Positions 1 to 43,708 of a DNA stretch of 46,119 bases are shown here, one piece after another. Position 1 is the first letter of the stretch; every line of letters begins with the position of its first letter. The DNA comes from Weissella muntiaci (GTDB lineage: Bacteria > Bacillota > Bacilli > Lactobacillales > Lactobacillaceae): assembly GCF_008107635.1 (NCBI RefSeq), contig NZ_SDGZ01000030.1, forward strand, positions 1 to 46,119. Direction: 5' to 3'. The notes beneath the pieces were generated by a model. That model had not been told where the DNA came from, did no database searches, and saw nothing but the letters and a program-made list of their open reading frames with translations. Position numbers and translations under genes: made by a program.

Positions 1-770
1 TGGTTAAAAACAATTACATTAGGCTTAATGACTTGGTTAACACTAGTTCTAAACAGTTCATCATTATGCATATTCCAATCAACACCGATTGCAGGTTGTT
101 GAGGAAGACGTTTAATCTCTTGAGTGAACACTAACTGTAATTCAAATTGACCATTATTTTTACGTTTCACTTTTGAAATGACAATCTTAGAGCCTTTGAG
201 GTTCTTAATGTTTTCAACAACTTGAACAATACCAAATCCTTGAATTTTGATATGGTGTGCTGATTTTATTTCAATTTGACCGTTACTTGGTAATGAAACT
301 GTCTTGAATGATGCTCTGTTACGTAAGAAATTCAATGAACCTTTACGATACCAAGCACGATTTTGGCGATTATTACTATGTTCATTGTTTTTATATGCTA
401 ATTTTTCGTCAATTGTCATTAAAGAAGCTTTATACAAAACTCGTCGATATTGTCCAAAATTAGTAAGCATTGTTTTTAATAGTTCATCGGCAGCTTGCGA
501 ATGTAAGCCAAGTTTAGGACTCCATTTTAACAATCCTTTATGTTGAGCAAACTTAACTTTAATAGCATTCAAAATATAACGTTTCTGGATAACGGTTGCT
601 ACAAATTTACGATTTAAATGTTTGTAACCGTAGGTTGCTTCAAGATACTTGTTAGTAAAATTCCATAATTCATTTTGAACATTAATACTTTGTTGATGAT
701 AATCAGTTAATTCTGGAGTTTCAACTAAACGAAATCGCCTTACGTATACTGATGTAGTTGTTTTAGACAA
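1..770 (-). CDS. tnpB: TnpB, IS200/IS605 family RNA-guided nuclease (5' part, runs off the window)
   Basis: I translated the minus strand from position 770 and found an uninterrupted frame of about 256 codons to the window edge. The start is TTG at 770-768. A stop codon lies three codons upstream and no ATG is available, and an AAGGAG sits about 14 nt before it. The protein is basic and rich in Lys/Arg/Asn, starts with SKTTTSVYVRRFRL, and reaches AIGVDWNMHNDELF near residue 235. That segment matches the first RuvC aspartate of TnpB (G-x-D). The rest of the RuvC domain, the zinc ribbon and any omega/reRNA at the 3' end lie outside the window. TnpB proteins cut DNA under guidance of an RNA made from the transposon end. 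The gene diverges from tnpA, as in IS605. I cannot tell whether the whole gene is intact. Confidence 0.8.
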   Translation of the reverse strand, partial: MSKTTTSVYVRRFRLVETPELTDYHQQSINVQNELWNFTNKYLEATYGYKHLNRKFVATVIQKRYILNAIKVKFAQHKGLLKWSPKLGLHSQAADELLKTMLTNFGQYRRVLYKASLMTIDEKLAYKNNEHSNNRQNRAWYRKGSLNFLRNRASFKTVSLPSNGQIEIKSAHHIKIQGFGIVQVVENIKNLKGSKIVISKVKRKNNGQFELQLVFTQEIKRLPQQPAIGVDWNMHNDELFRTSVNQVIKPNVIVFN

Positions 771-795
771 TTTTATTTAGTAAGCTCCTTCTGGT

Positions 796-815
796 ATATA
801 ATTAGCTAATTATAT
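796..815. promoter_or_regulatory. 20-bp perfect palindrome with opposed TATAAT boxes between tnpB and tnpA
   Basis: Positions 796-815 read the same on both strands around a central AGCT. Each half contains TATAAT (797-802 on plus, 814-809 on minus), so each divergent transposase gene has a -10-like box pointing towards it. No convincing -35 is visible. Symmetric overlapping promoters would make the two genes compete or be co-repressed. The promoter role is inferred. Confidence 0.45.
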
Positions 816-832
816 CATGCGGTGGATTTACT

Positions 833-1259
833 ATGATTGTTCATGAACGTGGCTATGTATACAATTTTAACTTCCATCTTGTTTGGGTTACAAAATATCG
901 TAGACCAATTTCTGTTAATCCAAAGTTAGTTCGAGATATGAAAGATGCATTATCGTATTTAGCAAATGAACACGATATTGAAATTCAAAAAATGGAAGTT
1001 ATGCCAGATCACGTTCATTTACTTGTTTTTTTTAAACCAAAGTATGCATCTTCCGAAATAGTACAAACACTAAAAGGTTCCAGTGCAAAACTTTGGTTCA
1101 CAGCTCATCCAGAAACAAAGAAACTGTTATGGGGTGGGCATCTGTGGTCACCAAGTTATTACATTGGAACACTAGGAGAAATGTCAAAATCAGTTGTATA
1201 AAATTATATTGAAAGCCAGCGTTCTGAAGCTAGCTAGATACGATAAGAAGAAACGTTAA
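833..1259 (+). pseudogene. tnpA: TnpA, IS200/IS605 family Y1 transposase, broken at its 3' end
   Basis: The first 122 codons encode a typical single-strand DNA transposase. It has FHLVWVTKYRRP near the N-terminus, the HUH motif in MPDHVHLLVF and a GTLGEMSKSVV segment. A TAA at 1199-1201 then stops translation. Read past it, the same frame gives NYIESQRSEA, where the tyrosine four residues before the glutamine is the catalytic tyrosine of the family. The product therefore ends just before its nucleophile. A second lesion follows: CTAG is tandemly duplicated at 1230-1237, which shifts the frame. Removing one copy restores ARYDKKKR and a stop at 1257-1259. A GGTGG ribosome site precedes the ATG. 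The element should be unable to transpose without another copy in trans. Confidence 0.85.
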
Positions 1260-1288
1260 CTACTAGAAATTGACCACGGTCTTTGGGT

Positions 1289-1326
1289 GGCTTTCATCTC
1301 GGCACTAAAGTACCGAGTTTTCAGCC
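1289..1326. repeat. Probable subterminal hairpin of the IS200/IS605 element
   Basis: Downstream of tnpA an imperfect hairpin pairs GGCT with AGCC and CTCGG (1298-1302) with CCGAG (1313-1317) around an AT-rich loop. IS200/IS605 ends are recognised as single-stranded imperfect hairpins, and this is the only such structure beside tnpA. The exact cleavage site cannot be read. From 1327 to 1424 I see no gene. Confidence 0.45.
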
Positions 1327-1424
1327 TAATTGTGAACGAAGATTTGCATCGACACGTAATAAAAATCCACAATCACCTTTCAGCTCAGTCATTTCTCACT
1401 GCTAATCAACTTGAATAATCGTCA

Positions 1425-1991
1425 CTAGTGAACTACCACTCTAGGTCCCACCTGTCTTCGAATGCTTAAAATAAGAAAAATTAGAATCGTCAATAAAACG
1501 TACACTGGGTAAAACCAAACTACACCAAAACCGGTCAAGATTATCAAATAATATCCTTTTCGAGGATACCTATTATGATCATTAGCATTCAGCCGGTTCT
1601 CCTTCTCGCGAATCAGCTCCGTTTCCATTAACGTAAATGAAATTGACCATAATAAGATCAAGGACAAATAACTAAACTCTGGAAGGACCTTATCTGGATA
1701 TCGCCCAACCCATGCTGTAAAGAATGGAAACAAACTCATAGTGAATATCCAAAGGCCGTTGTACCAATAAACTCTCGCATTAATTTTTCTCACCGAATTA
1801 AATAGTCCATGGTGATTAAACCATACTACCCAAATCACAAGGAAACTTAACAAATAGGCAAAAAAAGGGAGCATTGCCAACTTTAACGCTGAAAGGCTGG
1901 CATTTTTTGGAATTGGCAATTCTAAAATCATAATGGTTGCGATGATTGCCACAATCGCATCCGTATAATTGAGAAAACGTTCTTTTACCAC
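1425..1991 (-). CDS. TMEM175-like (DUF1211) integral membrane protein, putative K+ channel
   Basis: A 188-residue protein with about five hydrophobic segments. Its first helix carries RFLNYTDAIVAIIATIMILEL, close to the RxxxFSD...AI..T...LEL signature of bacterial TMEM175/DUF1211 channels, although the usual FSD reads YTD. Bacterial members are tetrameric potassium-permeable channels in the cytoplasmic membrane. The start is GTG at 1991 with a GAGG about 10 nt upstream. The next gene upstream on this strand is a frameshifted oxidoreductase, so the pair looks like an accessory patch between the insertion sequence and mgtE. The family assignment is fairly firm. The ion specificity is inferred from homologues. 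Confidence 0.75.
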   Translation of the reverse strand: MVKERFLNYTDAIVAIIATIMILELPIPKNASLSALKLAMLPFFAYLLSFLVIWVVWFNHHGLFNSVRKINARVYWYNGLWIFTMSLFPFFTAWVGRYPDKVLPEFSYLSLILLWSISFTLMETELIREKENRLNANDHNRYPRKGYYLIILTGFGVVWFYPVYVLLTILIFLILSIRRQVGPRVVVH

Positions 1992-2065
1992 GACTCTAAA
2001 TCCTCACGTTCTGCATCATTAAAACAGGCTAGCCTTGCTTGAACACAAACTTAATCCATCACTGT

Positions 2066-3030
2066 TTAGTTATGCGTGGTTTGCAACAAGATTTTCCCGA
2101 CGTTTTTCCCAGTTTCAATGTAATCATGGGCTGCTTGACCGTCTTCCAAGTCAAATACCCTTGGCTCCGTAATCCAAATCTTGTGATCCAAGAAGTAACT
2201 GAATAACCGCTCACTTCGTACTTTCCGCTCTTCAAAACTAGTCAGAAAATCCCATAGATCACCTGACATAATGTTTTTGGAATGTGAAAATAAATCAATA
2301 AAATCAACCTGTGGTGGATTTCCACCTGCCATTCCAAAGAACACAACCTTTCCCCGATTCTTGATTAACGAAATACTTTGATTCAAAGTTGCACCAACAC
2401 CATCATAGACCGTATCAAATCGACCACGTTGCCCAGCAACCCAATTATCATTCCGGCTTGAGAAAACTGCTTTACTACCTTGACGTAAAGCAATTTGCTT
2501 TTTCTCATCTGTTGAGGCCGATCCATAAACATTCATACCATCTGCTATTAACATTTGAGCAAGAATCTGCCCAACGCCGCCACTAATCCCCCTGTAACAA
2601 AAACATCCGAGTCAAACATATCTTTACCCAAATCATGAGCAAGAAAATCCGCTGTTAGCCCTTGCAAGCCAATACTTGCGGCTAGTTTTAGATCAATTCC
2701 GGTGGGTAAAAAGATCAACTTATCGGTGGGAACCGCCACGAATTCTGCATTCGCCAAAGGAACATCAACAAACAAAATTTCCTTATCCATGAGTTCCGAA
2801 TCTACTGCTTGCCCTAATTTAACAATCTTTCCCGATGCCTCATATCCGTTAATCAATGGTTGATGCTGTTCAATGTGATATTCACCCCGTCTCCGATAAA
2901 TATCCGCGAAGTTCAACCCAATATAAGTCGTTTTAACCAACACTTCATTTGCTTGCAATTCAGGCTCAGGAACCTCTCCGTACTTCAATACGTCACTCTT
3001 CCCAAACTCATCAAAGTATAATGCTTTCAA
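2066..3030 (-). pseudogene. Zinc-independent quinone oxidoreductase (MDR family), frameshifted
   Basis: Two adjacent frames together make one medium-chain reductase of about 320 residues. The N-terminal part contains KALYFDEFG, a GroES-like fold and NGYEASGKIV. The C-terminal part holds the Rossmann half, with GVGATLNQS and a C-terminal GKILLQTTHN. The break falls in the glycine-rich NADPH loop. The minus strand reads ACA-GGGGG-ATTAGTGGCGG near 2588-2592, and one extra G would restore VTGGISGGVGQILAQM. A deletion in a G run is therefore the likely cause, either true decay, slippage or a sequencing error. I prefer TTG at 3030, which gives the family's usual MKAL start and lies 7 nt after AGGAG. 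The ATG at 3036 is too close to that site. Confidence 0.85.
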
Positions 3031-6940: not shown

Positions 6941-6968
6941 TGTTGATCCTCCTAAATTACCCTATGTC

Positions 6969-6974
6969 ATTGTA
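6969..6974 (-). promoter_or_regulatory. Extended -10 promoter for relQ operon
   Basis: On the minus strand TACAAT is preceded by TG-N, about 30 nt before the relQ start. A clear -35 is not seen, as is common with extended -10 promoters. Confidence 0.45.
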
Positions 6975-7033
6975 CCAAAATGTACTCCTTTTCACGAGTT
7001 AAGAAATATATTTTAGTACTTAACCTGACACAG

Positions 7034-7078
7034 AGAAAGGCTGGGTGGCTTCATCCATTCGAAACCACCCAGCCTAAC
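7034..7078 (-). terminator. Strong hairpin after the YjbH-like gene
   Basis: Perfect 11-bp arms, AGGCTGGGTGG (7038-7048) and CCACCCAGCCT (7065-7075), separate the YjbH-like gene from relQ. On the minus strand a short T-containing stretch (TTTCTCTG) follows, so termination is likely but the U-tract is weak. Confidence 0.6.
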
Positions 7079-7095
7079 TTACCATTAAATATCTT

Positions 7096-14728: not shown

Positions 14729-15976
14729 CTACTTTCCAATGATTTCAGGCGCCAGATGTTCTTCAACTGTCGCACGCGTAATAATAACTTCCGCAACATC
14801 TTCGCGCCCCGGTAGATCAAACATAATATCCCGCATGACTTCTTCAATAATTGAACGCAAGCCACGCGCACCTGTCTCACGTTGAATTGCCAATTTTGCC
14901 ATTGCACGTAAAGCATCATCATTAAAAGTCAACTTAACGTCATCTAAGGCCAACAGTGCTTGATATTGCTTCACTAGCGCATTCTTAGGCTCCGTCAGAA
15001 TATGCACAAGATCATTCTCGTCTAATTCCTCTAAAGCAGTTAAGATTGGTAGTCGACCAATAAACTCAGGAATCAAACCAAAGCTCATCAAATCTTCTGG
15101 CAAGACATGTTGCATGATTGATGATTCTGAATCATTTAGCGCTTGCAACTTAGAATCAGTACCAAAGCCAATTACCTTCGCTCCTAAGCGTTCCTTAACG
15201 ATTGATTCGATTCCCGCAAAAGCCCCACCAACAATGAACAAAATATTAGTCGTATCAATTTGAATAAATTCTTGATTTGGGTGCTTACGTCCACCTTGCG
15301 GCGGAACGTTTGCAATCGTTCCTTCAAGCATCTTTAGTAAGGCTTGTTGGACTCCTTCACCAGAAACGTCTCGTGTGATTGAGACATTTTCAGACTTCTT
15401 TGCAATCTTATCAATCTCATCAATGTAGATAATTCCAGTCTGAGCTGCCTCAACGTCATAATCAGCTGCCTGAATCAACTTCAACAGAATATTCTCAACG
15501 TCCTCACCAACATAACCAGCCTCGGTCAAGGTTGTCGCATCAGCAATCGCAAATGGCACATTCAAAAGTTGAGCTAAACTTTGCGCAATGTAGGTCTTAC
15601 CTGAACCAGTCGGTCCGACCATTGCAATGTTAGACTTTTGAAGTTCAACACCGCTCTCATCATCCTCACCAGCCAACATGCTATTAATCCGCTTATAGTG
15701 ATTATAAACAGCAACTGCTAATGTTCGCTTCGCTTCGGTTTGACCAATCACGAATTGATTCAAATTCTCAACAATTTCATGAGGCGTCTTTAAAGTTAGT
15801 GTATGCTCCAAAGCATCTTGTTGGAGATCTTCTTCAATAATTGATTGCGCCAAGGCAACACATTCATTACAAATGTAAACGCCAGGTCCCGCAATCAGCT
15901 TCTTTACTTCGGTTGAAGCCTTCCCGCAGAATGAACAATATGCAATACCGTTCGTATTATCGGTTGTGTTAAACAC
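14729..15976 (-). CDS. clpX: ATP-dependent Clp protease ATP-binding subunit ClpX
   Basis: A 415-residue AAA+ unfoldase. The N-terminal zinc-binding domain carries two CxxC pairs (YCSFCGKA and YICNECVA). The ATPase domain shows [15 protein letters not shown] (Walker A), the pore loop [22 protein letters not shown] (Walker B), the RKHPNQEF region and [11 protein letters not shown] (sensor 2). It feeds substrates to ClpP. The start is GTG at 15976 with a perfect AGGAGGTT 6 nt upstream. A short AT-rich stretch with TACAAT (around 16020) may be its promoter, immediately next to the triple repeat. Confidence 0.97.
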
Positions 15977-16050
15977 TGTTCAACCTCCTATGTTTCATTA
16001 AATACAGTTTCTAATATTGTAACAAATTACCTGGATTAATGCAGAGCATT

Positions 16051-16179
16051 ATCAGAGTGCGGTCTGGCCGATCAGTTGGACCGTTGATAAGGAAGCAGTA
16101 AGTGCTTAGCGTTTCCGGCACGGAAATGATGAGTGCTTACTACGACTTATCCTAGGTCCAACAGGCCAGTCCCACGTTT
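16051..16179. ncRNA. Structured element, copy 1
   Basis: P0 pairs CTGGCC with GGCCAG, and P1 pairs GTTGGACC with GGTCCAAC. P2 is GATAAG/CTTATC, P3 AGTAAG/CTTACT with a flanking C-A mismatch, and P4 TTTCCG/CGGAAA closed by GCA. An outer GTG-GG/CC-CAC extension with one bulged C is possible. Typing it as RNA rests on the helix covariation with copy 3. A DNA hairpin role is not excluded. Confidence 0.5.
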
Positions 16180-16308
16180 ATCAGAGTGCGGTAGTGCCGA
16201 CCAGTTGGACCGTTGATAAGGAAGCAGTAAGTGCTTAGCGTTTCCGGCACGGAAATGATGAGTGCTTACTGCGACTTATCCTAGGTCCAACAGGCCAGTC
16301 CCACGTTT
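16180..16308. ncRNA. Structured element, copy 2 (mosaic)
   Basis: The core is the same as copy 1, except that an A-to-G change at the base of P3 turns the mismatch into a pair (GCAGTAAG/CTTACTGC). The 5' arm of P0 reads GGTAGTGCC, like copy 3, while its 3' arm reads GGCCAGTCC, like copy 1, so P0 is broken within this copy. Confidence 0.5.
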
Positions 16309-16437
16309 ATCAGAGTGCGGTAGCGCCGACCAATCAATCCGTTGATAACGTAGGGCAATAAGTTTAGCGGTCTCGGCACGAGTCCGATGAGCTTATTGCA
16401 CAAGTTATCCTAGGATTGATAGGCGCTACCATCTTCA
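16309..16437. ncRNA. Structured element, copy 3 (diverged)
   Basis: All helices have different sequence but remain paired: P0 GGTAGCGCC/GGCGCTACC, P1 ATCAATCC/GGATTGAT, P2 GATAAC/GTTATC, P3 GCAATAAG/CTTATTGC, P4 CTCG/CGAG. The loop and internal-loop residues match copies 1 and 2. The 3' boundary is approximate. Confidence 0.5.
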
Positions 16438-16480
16438 AATGATTCGAACATCCATCAACAGTAACTGTTCATCCGATTCA

Positions 16481-16849
16481 CTAAGCTTCTAGAAACGCAA
16501 AATACTGATCATCCTCAACAGCGAAATAGAATGAGCTCCGGCCATTGACAGTTTGAATCTCACCATAAATTGGCATTGCTGCCGCCACTTTGGCATGCAT
16601 TGCTGCTAAATCATGAACTGAGAAGGCGATCGAAGGCTTGCTGTCAGCAACCTCTGGTGAATTTTCGCGAATAAAGGCAATGTCCCACAGTTGAATACGT
16701 GCATTCCCGTCGATATCTGGTGCCAATACGATCGTCTCCGATGTACCGACAGACATACGTTGAATTTCCACGAAACCAATTTTAATAAATAATTCCGCAA
16801 CTGTTGCCACGCTCTTTACATATAAGTTACTAGTCATTTCAATAGTCAT
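16481..16849 (-). CDS. VOC (glyoxalase/bleomycin-resistance) superfamily protein
   Basis: A 122-residue single-domain protein. The pattern TSNLYVKSVATVAELFIKIGF...IAFSVHDLAAMHAKVAAAM...NGRSSFYFAVEDDQYFAFLE resembles one vicinal-oxygen-chelate module, including the closing glutamate. Members are metal-dependent lyases, dioxygenases or drug-binding proteins. Nothing here points to a substrate. AAGGTGAT precedes the ATG. It separates tig from clpX, which are usually adjacent in this group, so it and the repeat array look like an insertion into the conserved block. Confidence 0.7.
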   Translation of the reverse strand: MTIEMTSNLYVKSVATVAELFIKIGFVEIQRMSVGTSETIVLAPDIDGNARIQLWDIAFIRENSPEVADSKPSIAFSVHDLAAMHAKVAAAMPIYGEIQTVNGRSSFYFAVEDDQYFAFLEA

Positions 16850-16920
16850 AATATCACCTTTTGCTCTACATTCCAGTTATTGACCAATATTATTCTGTGT
16901 AATTAGATTCATCGCTAATC

Positions 16921-16966
16921 AAAGACCGAATAACTTCTATTCAACATAGAAAATTATCCGGCCTTT
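16921..16966 (-). terminator. Terminator after tig
   Basis: AAAGACCGAATAA and TTATCCGGCCTTT form the arms of a hairpin ending in T-rich sequence. The same AAAG-CCG-AT design recurs at 34984-35035 and 41776-41816. Confidence 0.7.
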
Positions 16967-17027
16967 ATTGTAGATTTTATCAACATTATCTGCTGAATGA
17001 AATCTACCTATTTATTTAAATTCAAAA

Positions 17028-18326
17028 TTAAGCTTCTTCAACAGCTGAATTAACAACTACGTCAACAGCCTTCTTAATTTGAATATCATGAGCCAACATG
17101 TCAGGTGTCAAGGCTGCGCGAACAGCATCGGCTTCCATACCATATTGTGCTGCCAAGTCAGCAACTTCAGCATCAACATCCGCATCAGATGCTACAATGT
17201 TTTCAGCCTTTACAATTGCCTCCAAGACCAAGTTAGTCTTTACACGGTCGAATGCGCCTTCTTCATATTGCTTGTGCAAGTCATCTTCACTTGAACCAGT
17301 AATTTGGAAGTACATTTCAGGTGAAACACCTTGGTTTTGCATTGAAGCGAAGAATTGGTTCATCTGACGGTGAACATCTTCATCGATCATTGCGGCTGGC
17401 AAATCGCCACCCTCAACTTCAGCGTTTTCAACAGCAGCAGTAATTGCTACTTCTTCCTTCTTGTCTTGCGCGTCGTTGGCCTTAGTTTCTTCCAAACGAG
17501 TCTTAGTCTTAGCCTTCAACTCATCCAAAGAAGCAACGTCTTCATCAACGTCCTTAGCAAATTCGTCGTCCAAGGCAGGAACTTCCTTAACCTTAACTTC
17601 GTGAATAGTTGTCACGAACTTTGCTTCTTTACCAGCTAAGTCTTCTGCTTGGTAGTCGGCTGGGAAAGTAACATTAACTTCAATTTCCTCACCAGCTTTA
17701 TGACCAACTAATTGCTCTTCAAAGCCAGGAATGAATTGTCCTGAACCAAGCTCAAGACTAAAGTTGTCACCCTTACCACCGTCAAATTCAACACCGTCAA
17801 CTGAACCTACGAAATCGATGATAACTGTGTCACCATCTGAAGCCGCTGTATCCTCAGCCAAAACCAATTCGGCTTGACCTTGACGCAAACGCTCGATCTC
17901 TTCGTCAACTTCTGCATCTGAAACAGTTGTGTCTGCAGCAGGTACCTTAACACCCTTATACTCACCCAACTTGATTTCAGGAGCTAACTCAACTTCAGCA
18001 GTCAACTTCCAGGCTTCACCCTTGTTCATTGATACTGCATCGATATGAGGTTGTCCTACTACCGTGATACCTGCTTCTGCAACTGCAGCTGCATATACTT
18101 CAGGCAAAACATGGTTCAAAGCTTCGTTATACAAAGCCTCTTCACCGTACATTTGCATGAATACTTGCTTAGGCATCTTACCCTTACGGAAACCAGGGAC
18201 GGCAATATTCTTCTTTGCCTCGTTAAATGCTTCATCAATACCCTTTTGGGCTGCTTCAACAGAAACTTCGAATGCCAAAGTTCCCTTGTTGCCTTCACCC
18301 TTAGTGAAAACTGCGCTTGTAGCCAT
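17028..18326 (-). CDS. tig: Trigger factor
   Basis: A 432-residue ribosome-bound chaperone. The N-terminal domain holds the ribosome-docking signature FRKGKMPKQVF (about residues 44-55). The FKBP-type prolyl isomerase domain (about 160-245) shows GDTVIIDFVGSVDGVEFDGG and SGQFIPGFEEQLVG. A long helical C-terminal domain follows and is rich in Ala/Asp/Glu. GGAGG lies upstream of the ATG. A good promoter at 18383-18411 makes it a separate transcription unit upstream of VOC and clpX. Confidence 0.97.
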   Translation of the reverse strand: MATSAVFTKGEGNKGTLAFEVSVEAAQKGIDEAFNEAKKNIAVPGFRKGKMPKQVFMQMYGEEALYNEALNHVLPEVYAAAVAEAGITVVGQPHIDAVSMNKGEAWKLTAEVELAPEIKLGEYKGVKVPAADTTVSDAEVDEEIERLRQGQAELVLAEDTAASDGDTVIIDFVGSVDGVEFDGGKGDNFSLELGSGQFIPGFEEQLVGHKAGEEIEVNVTFPADYQAEDLAGKEAKFVTTIHEVKVKEVPALDDEFAKDVDEDVASLDELKAKTKTRLEETKANDAQDKKEEVAITAAVENAEVEGGDLPAAMIDEDVHRQMNQFFASMQNQGVSPEMYFQITGSSEDDLHKQYEEGAFDRVKTNLVLEAIVKAENIVASDADVDAEVADLAAQYGMEADAVRAALTPDMLAHDIQIKKAVDVVVNSAVEEA

Positions 18327-29682: not shown

Positions 29683-30048
29683 CTAGTGCCCCATAGTCGT
29701 TCCATCGCGAACAACAACTGTATCATCCAACACTCCTTGTTCACTACTAATAACCATCCCACCAAAGTCGGTCACATCAAGAATCATATGTTCACCCAAA
29801 TAATCCTTCGCATAACTCTTAACTGGGATTTTACCATAATTAGAATCAATCTCTAAATCAAACCATGGTAATAGTGGTTGATTTTCCTCAACGATTAAGA
29901 CTACCAATGAATTTTGCATTGCTCCTTCAGCAGTCACGGAATATGGTGAAACACCATCATCAAACATTAAGACTAATCTACGATTTGGTGTCTTATTCAA
30001 AACTGGCGCGATCTTCTCCATTGCTAAATCAGTTATTCTTAGTTCCAT
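29683..30048 (-). CDS. HesB/YqkB-like (Fe-S biosynthesis fold) protein without cysteines
   Basis: A 121-residue protein beginning MELRITDLAMEKI and carrying LVLMFDDGVSPYS, the pattern of YqkB-type members of the Fe-S_biosyn family. It has no cysteine, so it cannot bind a cluster the way A-type carriers (IscA/SufA) do. A paralogue lies at 43322-43663. It is inserted between ireB and ruvX and has its own terminator. Its function is unknown. Confidence 0.7.
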   Translation of the reverse strand: MELRITDLAMEKIAPVLNKTPNRRLVLMFDDGVSPYSVTAEGAMQNSLVVLIVEENQPLLPWFDLEIDSNYGKIPVKSYAKDYLGEHMILDVTDFGGMVISSEQGVLDDTVVVRDGTTMGH

Positions 30049-41821: not shown

Positions 41822-41894
41822 TGGACGTTACAGGGATCGAACCTGTGACCCCCTGCTTGTAAGGCAGGTGCTCTCCCAGCTGAGCTAAACGTCC
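41822..41894 (-). tRNA. tRNA-Val (anticodon UAC)
   Basis: A 73-nt cloverleaf on the minus strand. The acceptor arm is GGACGTT/AACGTCC with discriminator A. The D arm carries AGCTCAGCTGGGAGAGC. The anticodon stem CCTGC/GCAGG has loop CTTACAA, giving anticodon TAC, and the T arm is ACAGG-TTCGAAC-CTGT. CCA is not encoded. Confidence 0.97.
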
Positions 41895-43321: not shown

Positions 43322-43663
43322 CTATCGTGTTTGCAAGCTCATATTAGGATCAATCATTCCTGAATCCCCTTTTAACTGAAAGCGAAGATACTTATCAAGA
43401 TCAATTGATGCATTCTCATCCAACTGATTTATAGCGTATCCTTTAACATAGACTTGTCCAAGATTGCTTGGTACCGTCTCATCAAAGTCCTTACTTATTT
43501 TTTCAGGATCAACAACAATTAAATTAAAGGCCACATCTAACGTGCATGTCGCTTCATCAGAAAACGGACCGACACCATCATCGAAATCTAATACTAATGC
43601 CTTATTCGGCTCTAAATCTCGTTCAACTCGTTCCTTCGCTGCATCTGAAAATACAATCTTCAT
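43322..43663 (-). CDS. HesB/YqkB-like protein, second paralogue
   Basis: A 113-residue protein starting MKIVFSDAAKERVERDL and carrying ALVLDFDDGVGPFSDEATC, the same DDGV-P-S motif as the gene at 29683. It has a single cysteine and lacks the CxnCGC pattern of A-type iron-sulfur carriers, so it is a YqkB-type member of unknown role. I prefer the third codon ATG as start. It ends at the shared terminator and lies downstream of dtd. Confidence 0.72.
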   Translation of the reverse strand: MKIVFSDAAKERVERDLEPNKALVLDFDDGVGPFSDEATCTLDVAFNLIVVDPEKISKDFDETVPSNLGQVYVKGYAINQLDENASIDLDKYLRFQLKGDSGMIDPNMSLQTR

Positions 43664-43708
43664 CACCATTTCCCCCTTTATTAGCTTACACTATATGGTA
43701 CACCTTTC

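Follow-up and report, generated by a model that had tools for sequence, protein, structure and literature searches.

In Weissella muntiaci, the spacer between tig and clpX holds three tandem copies of a 129-nt sequence, which raises the questions of whether the copies preserve a fold, in which molecule and on which strand such a fold would act, and how the array came to lie at this site. The analysis was performed on a window of 46,119 nt, i.e., the whole stretch of contig NZ_SDGZ01000030.1 under study, and positions are counted from its first letter. An earlier note on this DNA had claimed three 129-nt tandem copies spanning 16051-16437. Repeat analysis confirmed them, finding the same period twice; the array itself had been recognised correctly, but its phase was two bases off and is corrected here to 16049-16435. 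The copies lie head to tail with no indel among them. The array and its surroundings comprise the following features:

14729-15976, minus strand: clpX, neighbour gene.
16016-16021, minus strand: TACAAT, apparent -10 element of clpX, between the array and clpX, conserved in the genus (presumed role).
16049-16177, plus strand: copy 1 (version A), hairpin proper at 16061-16172.
16178-16306, plus strand: copy 2 (hybrid), hairpin at 16190-16301, P0 broken.
16307-16435, plus strand: copy 3 (version B), hairpin at 16319-16430.
16481-16849, minus strand: VOC-like ORF of 122 aa, its 3' end facing the array 45 nt away; possibly co-acquired.
17028-18326, minus strand: tig, flanking gene.

Copies 1 and 2 are 96% alike, differing at 5 positions, and copy 3 has 63% identity to copy 1 at exactly equal length; a single ungapped alignment and a single scheme of 45 pairs accommodate all three. 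A coding repeat is unlikely, as stops recur in all six frames of the array.

The selection on a fold proposed in the earlier note is supported by the way in which copies 1 and 3 differ. Under the pairing scheme, which was derived from these same sequences, 18 of the 45 pairs change on both sides, a number reached by 0 of 500 shuffles (mean 6.9), and pairing is kept in all 18; in a control with slid partners, the double changes fell to 0-2. Of the 45 pairs, 43 are formed by copy 3, whereas permutation of its 3' letters gave 23.2 on average and 35 at most. Six pairs change on one side only. Three of them are exchanges between Watson-Crick and G.U pairs, and of the remaining ones the pair at columns 65/77 is lost (T.T in copy 3), that at columns 15/122 is gained (T.T in copies 1 and 2), and columns 48/94 are unmatched in both copies. 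The earlier statement that each change is matched on the other arm thus stands for the double changes, but not for these three pairs of columns, nor for columns 15-18 of P0 in copy 2. Moreover, copies 1 and 3 agree more often in unpaired columns (33 of 39 identical) than in paired ones (48 of 90; Fisher p 0.0007), as in a structured RNA. Covariation beyond chance, the general mark of a selected structured RNA, is present; it represents one comparison of two versions, because copy 2 is not independent (see below). An ordinary double-stranded binding site is disfavoured, since the inner motifs are fixed while the stems vary yet match; a dsDNA operator, which would keep its arm sequence, was therefore dropped.

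The invariant segments, all read on the plus strand, are as follows:

16049-16063, also 16178-16192 and 16307-16321, plus strand: 15-nt 5' leader TTATCAGAGTGCGGT, from the alignment.
16081-16090 (copy 1) and 16339-16348 (copy 3), plus strand: CCGTTGATAA, its GTT being one side of a 3x3 internal loop.
16106-16111 (copy 1) and 16364-16369 (copy 3), plus strand: TTAGCG, pairing with GATGAG.
16116-16122 (copy 1) and 16374-16380 (copy 3), plus strand: apical CGGCACG, with a GCA triloop.
16128-16133 (copy 1) and 16386-16391 (copy 3), plus strand: GATGAG, from the alignment and fold.
16147-16156, 16276-16285 and 16405-16414 (copies 1-3), plus strand: TTATCCTAGG, its CTA being the other side of the 3x3 loop.

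TTAGCG and GATGAG had earlier been described as unpaired; in the plus-strand fold they pair with each other save for one G.A mismatch, and include one invariant U.G. Inside the hairpin, the segments that are both invariant and unpaired are GTT/CTA and the GCA triloop. CCGTTGATAA is a possible pairing partner of the 5' leader (TTATCA...CGG) as well as of the 3' arm (TTATC...GG), so that each unit might switch between two folds; the alternative 5' hairpin has an energy of -16.7 kcal/mol in copy 1 and -10.3 kcal/mol in copy 2, and it is not the minimum-energy fold in copy 3. Copy 1 also carries TACTACGAC at 16138-16146, altered in copies 2 and 3. It resembles the nick site of pMV158-type plasmids, and this candidate was dropped as a probable chance likeness because the other copies differ.

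On the plus strand, each copy folds as RNA into one long hairpin (-64.4, -61.3 and -60.6 kcal/mol for copies 1, 2 and 3; z -8.0, -7.0 and -8.7), and on the minus strand the energies are weaker in all three copies (-51.7, -53.8 and -51.4 kcal/mol; z -5.3, -5.8 and -6.1); for every copy and strand, 0 of 200 shuffles were as low. In a sliding fold scan of the window (3,066 positions, 129 nt wide, step 15), the 13 lowest plus-strand energies all fell inside the array. The lowest energy outside it on either strand, -56.2 kcal/mol, is below that of the array's own minus strand, and on the minus strand a site at about 6961 folds lower than the array. An intergenic stretch there (6955-7089, minus strand) contains two strong hairpins (-57 kcal/mol), the first terminator-like and the second again a long palindrome, with no credible match in Rfam. 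Folded as DNA, copies 1 and 3 gave -28.9 and -33.1 kcal/mol on the plus strand (z -5.6 and -8.1) and -24.6 and -29.0 kcal/mol on the minus strand (z -4.0 and -6.0). On the plus strand, G.U occurs in one or more copies at five distinct pairs and A.C at one, the roles being swapped on the minus strand; the wobble pairs weakly point to the plus strand as the selected one, the count being small (5:1) and G.T being tolerated by single-stranded DNA as well.

Copy 2, counted earlier as a copy in its own right, turned out to be composite, its left end resembling copy 3 and its body copy 1. Its columns 1-24 (16178-16201) match copy 3 except at column 18, and columns 25-129 match copy 1 except at column 94. 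Accordingly, the two arms of its P0, broken at columns 15-18, seem to come from different parents, and the broken P0 suggests that constraint may have relaxed at this locus. The order A-hybrid-B is exactly that expected from an unequal crossover within an original A-B pair, which is probably how copy 2 arose. A and B probably came in together as elements that had already diverged, perhaps accompanied by the VOC-like gene. Their identity (63%) is below that between the genome of the window and its relative G017 in clpX and tig (80-83%); because coding and non-coding sequences evolve at different rates, this is no more than a hint of a divergence of A and B before arrival. It is also possible that the array is ancestral and was lost elsewhere, a less simple history than arrival.

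The placement of the array between the VOC-like gene and clpX is indeed unusual, as the earlier note had remarked: of the 27 other genomes of the genus, 25 have tig and clpX in near adjacency, with the aligned pieces of the two genes 81-253 nt apart. In G017, the best-matching relative, similarity on the side of clpX reaches 16031 by BLAST and, by eye, about 16048, the start of copy 1. The motif TGNTAYAAT (minus strand, 16016-16024) occurs upstream of clpX in 25 of the 26 relatives examined (G008 being left out) and is taken as the apparent extended -10 element of clpX. A gap of about 25-30 nt separates it from the start of the array, which lies upstream and abuts the apparent promoter. A clpX leader, one of the roles suggested earlier, is therefore improbable, as the apparent conserved -10 lies between the array and clpX. 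In G008 (L168; assembly 66% complete), the clpX and tig blocks are forward-oriented but reversed in order, and long ORFs are present. In G022, a different insertion occupies the tig-clpX spacer, namely an ORF of 786 aa (2.4 kb; 234-2594, minus strand, of L306, G022:C41:15200-18200) with an apparent signal peptide, judged by eye; the spacer may therefore be a permissive insertion site.

The VOC-like ORF has no match in Pfam and one weak match in NCBIfam, to a glyoxalase model (E 0.13), and is 35.7% identical to a plasmid gene annotated as a VOC family protein. Homologues were found in 10 of the 27 other genomes of the genus (26-46% identity; none in G017) and in 18 of 145 other genomes of the family (28-36%), one of which, G002, is also among the ten.

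The earlier note had recognised no known RNA class in the array, and had proposed a search of Rfam and a covariance model run on homologues as checks. With Rfam 15 at the gathering cut-off, the whole window yielded a tRNA at 41822-41894 and nothing at the array, in agreement with that view. Six matches around the array fell below threshold (best E 1.2), and a C/D-box-like RNA was dropped, its match being sub-threshold only. The covariance model, R1, was built from three sequences only, i.e., the array copies. In the genome of the window (96.5% complete), R1 found the three copies and their own minus-strand mirror images, and blastn found the array locus alone. Among 28 genomes of the genus, including this one, blastn revealed no relative (best other match E 0.006 over 27 nt), nor did R1 with permissive filters in the 27 others. 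Family samples of 151 and 397 genomes and samples of 395, 398 and 398 genomes for the order, class and phylum gave matches to R1 in the window's own genome only, so that the homologue search from genus to phylum returned none; these sizes include that genome, the samples overlap, and above 40 genomes stricter filters apply, with which weak matches can be lost.

In plasmids and phages, blastn at E 1e-5 found no relative. At E 10 there was one 23-nt match in plasmids (Vibrio) and one in phages; R1 gave nothing above 10.5 bits at the two loci, both of which look like coding sequence by eye, the records being unannotated there, and both matches were taken as chance. A DNA pattern run over genome contigs picked out at least 118 stretches, and no relative was found by R1 on 80 of them or by inspection of the 25 lowest-energy folds. 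Six DNA patterns run over IMG/VR picked out 4, 13, 37, 67, 7 and 3 stretches. R1 was run on all 17 stretches of the first two patterns (the folds of which were also viewed), on 98 of the 104 of the third and fourth and on all 10 of the fifth and sixth, and no relative was found; the only two weak matches (19.4 bits, E 0.26) both begin on the 14-mer bait. In the literature, nothing was recognised as describing the element among the matches listed. The array is so far an orphan among the Rfam families, genomes, plasmids, phages and viral contigs searched.

The reading that we favour, tentatively and at slightly less than an even chance, is a tandem structured RNA on the plus strand that displays a repeated binding site. 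The selected molecule would be the plus-strand RNA, with each copy forming a rigid stem that shows the invariant GUU/CUA internal loop, the G.A/U.G patch and the CGGCACG apex. These features would constitute a putative repeated binding site for a protein or another RNA, and their repetition in tandem would increase dose or avidity, as it does in sponge RNAs or in small RNAs present in several copies. Horizontal transfer would have brought the A-B pair into the tig-clpX spacer, perhaps along with the VOC-like gene; copy 2 would then be the product of an unequal crossover at the left end that A and B share. Such an RNA is favoured by the pairing of all 18 both-side changes, set against the slid controls, by the G.U use, the better plus-strand folding and the three Watson-Crick/G.U exchanges among six, as well as by the stops in six frames and the lineage-specific placement. 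A promoter and terminator scan of 15500-17200 returned eight promoter-like sites on both strands (shuffle mean 4.0, sd 1.9), including plus-strand ones within clpX (15932-15960) and, pointing outward, at the end of copy 3 (16416-16443); no site in the scan was a convincing promoter for the array. The scan also returned two terminator-like sites, both on the minus strand within the VOC-like ORF, and none at the array. The case for a plus-strand RNA is weakened by the lack of a convincing plus-strand promoter upstream, of a plus-strand terminator and of a plus-strand gene directly downstream, by the significant folding of the minus strand, and by there being two independent versions only, with no relative in any collection searched.

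Among known RNAs, LhrC of Listeria is a multi-copy tandem bacterial small RNA. The array is like such tandem small RNAs in having near-copies of a structured unit side by side in intergenic DNA, and unlike them in that a convincing promoter or terminator for each copy is absent, the units are almost wholly paired and Rfam gives no match. In type III toxin-antitoxin systems, the toxin gene is directly preceded by short RNA repeats in tandem; here, the units are 129 nt long and are flanked by clpX and by a VOC-like gene reading toward the array.

The main rival, which we consider unlikely, is a fold of the plus-strand DNA itself, brought in and left by a mobile element and acted on, like a lagging-strand origin or an attC site, by an enzyme of replication, transfer or recombination. 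Covariation requires a folded single strand, which need not be RNA, and a DNA site would need neither promoter nor terminator, in line with the scan; the DNA fold is better on the plus strand in both copies folded, and the insertion is lineage-specific. However, none of the adjoining genes (clpX, the VOC-like ORF and tig) is a replication, relaxase or recombinase gene, and no plasmid relative was found by blastn. In an excerpt of PMC5703833, ssoA is described as a sequence of about 160 nt whose strand folds into one large structure, and an excerpt of PMC10378824 places the CS-6 consensus TAGCGA/T in an exposed loop of the folded single-strand origin; putative ssoA can occur on chromosomal elements, according to an excerpt of PMC5090054. 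The array is similar in its one large strand fold and in the TAGCGT of copies 1 and 2, which fits CS-6 as quoted, but in the predicted fold the motif lies within a stem, copy 3 has TAGCGG, the units are in tandem and no replicon genes adjoin them. On pUB110, the sole single-strand-origin plasmid tested, the best match of R1 was 8.1 bits (E 0.59) with filters off.

Integron attC sites are bounded by RYYYAAC...GTTRRRY end boxes and form an imperfect hairpin with conserved inner features and variable stems. The array shares the imperfect hairpin, the conserved inner features, the variable stems and an adjacent small ORF, but the end boxes are absent: P1 is GTTGGAC...GTCCAAC in copy 1, in reverse order, and ATCAATC...GATTGAT in copy 3. 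No integrase was found among the 23 ORFs scanned of the 52 listed ORFs of at least 100 aa in the window. Elsewhere, the contig carries two separate Fe-S_biosyn genes (Pfam PF01521), at 29683-30048 and 43322-43669 (minus strand).

It is quite improbable that the minus-strand RNA is the functional one, acting as the VOC-like gene's 3' UTR and either stabilising that gene's mRNA or shielding clpX from read-through. The VOC-like gene does read toward the array across a gap of 45 nt, and the minus-strand copies fold well (z -5.3 to -6.1); nevertheless, the G.U use favours the plus strand, no terminator-like site was found at the array in the scan, fixed inner motifs are not needed by a 3' stabiliser, and the element was present at 0 of the 26 VOC-homologue loci examined with default filters.

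A miniature mobile palindrome that landed twice at the array site is very improbable. MITE, REPIN and ERIC-like elements have a similar length and hairpin shape and, like the array, are long intergenic palindromes; the insertion is lineage-specific, and an IS200-like Y1 transposase gene is present elsewhere on the contig (833-1201, plus strand; Pfam Y1_Tnp, E 2e-33). The array differs from these dispersed elements in being a single locus by both blastn and R1, and no target-site duplication was seen by eye. Mobile repeats also keep their arms, whereas here the arms vary in a matched way rather than being copied, and the inner motifs stay. The inverted repeats around the Y1 transposase ORF are unlike the array by eye.

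The correction of quasi-palindrome arms against each other by template switching is an established mechanism that can produce paired changes in a long inverted repeat and needs no selection, but it is the most improbable of the readings, as it should erase inner mismatches, while A and B share GTT/CTA, G.A and U.G unchanged and the unpaired positions are the most conserved in the array.

Beyond the preferred plus-strand RNA with its repeated binding site, it is possible, though doubtful, that the array represents a new class of structured RNA, or of folded single-stranded DNA site, spread horizontally as arrays of diverged units, each of them a rigid hairpin in which the apex and two inner patches do not vary. 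If transcribed, the array would define a new RNA class, and copy 2 with its broken P0 would serve as an internal mutant, ready for studies of structure and function. Should the array instead be a DNA site, a mobile element that has escaped sampling would be indicated. As the array lies against the apparent promoter of clpX, an effect on this central protease gene could be easily tested.
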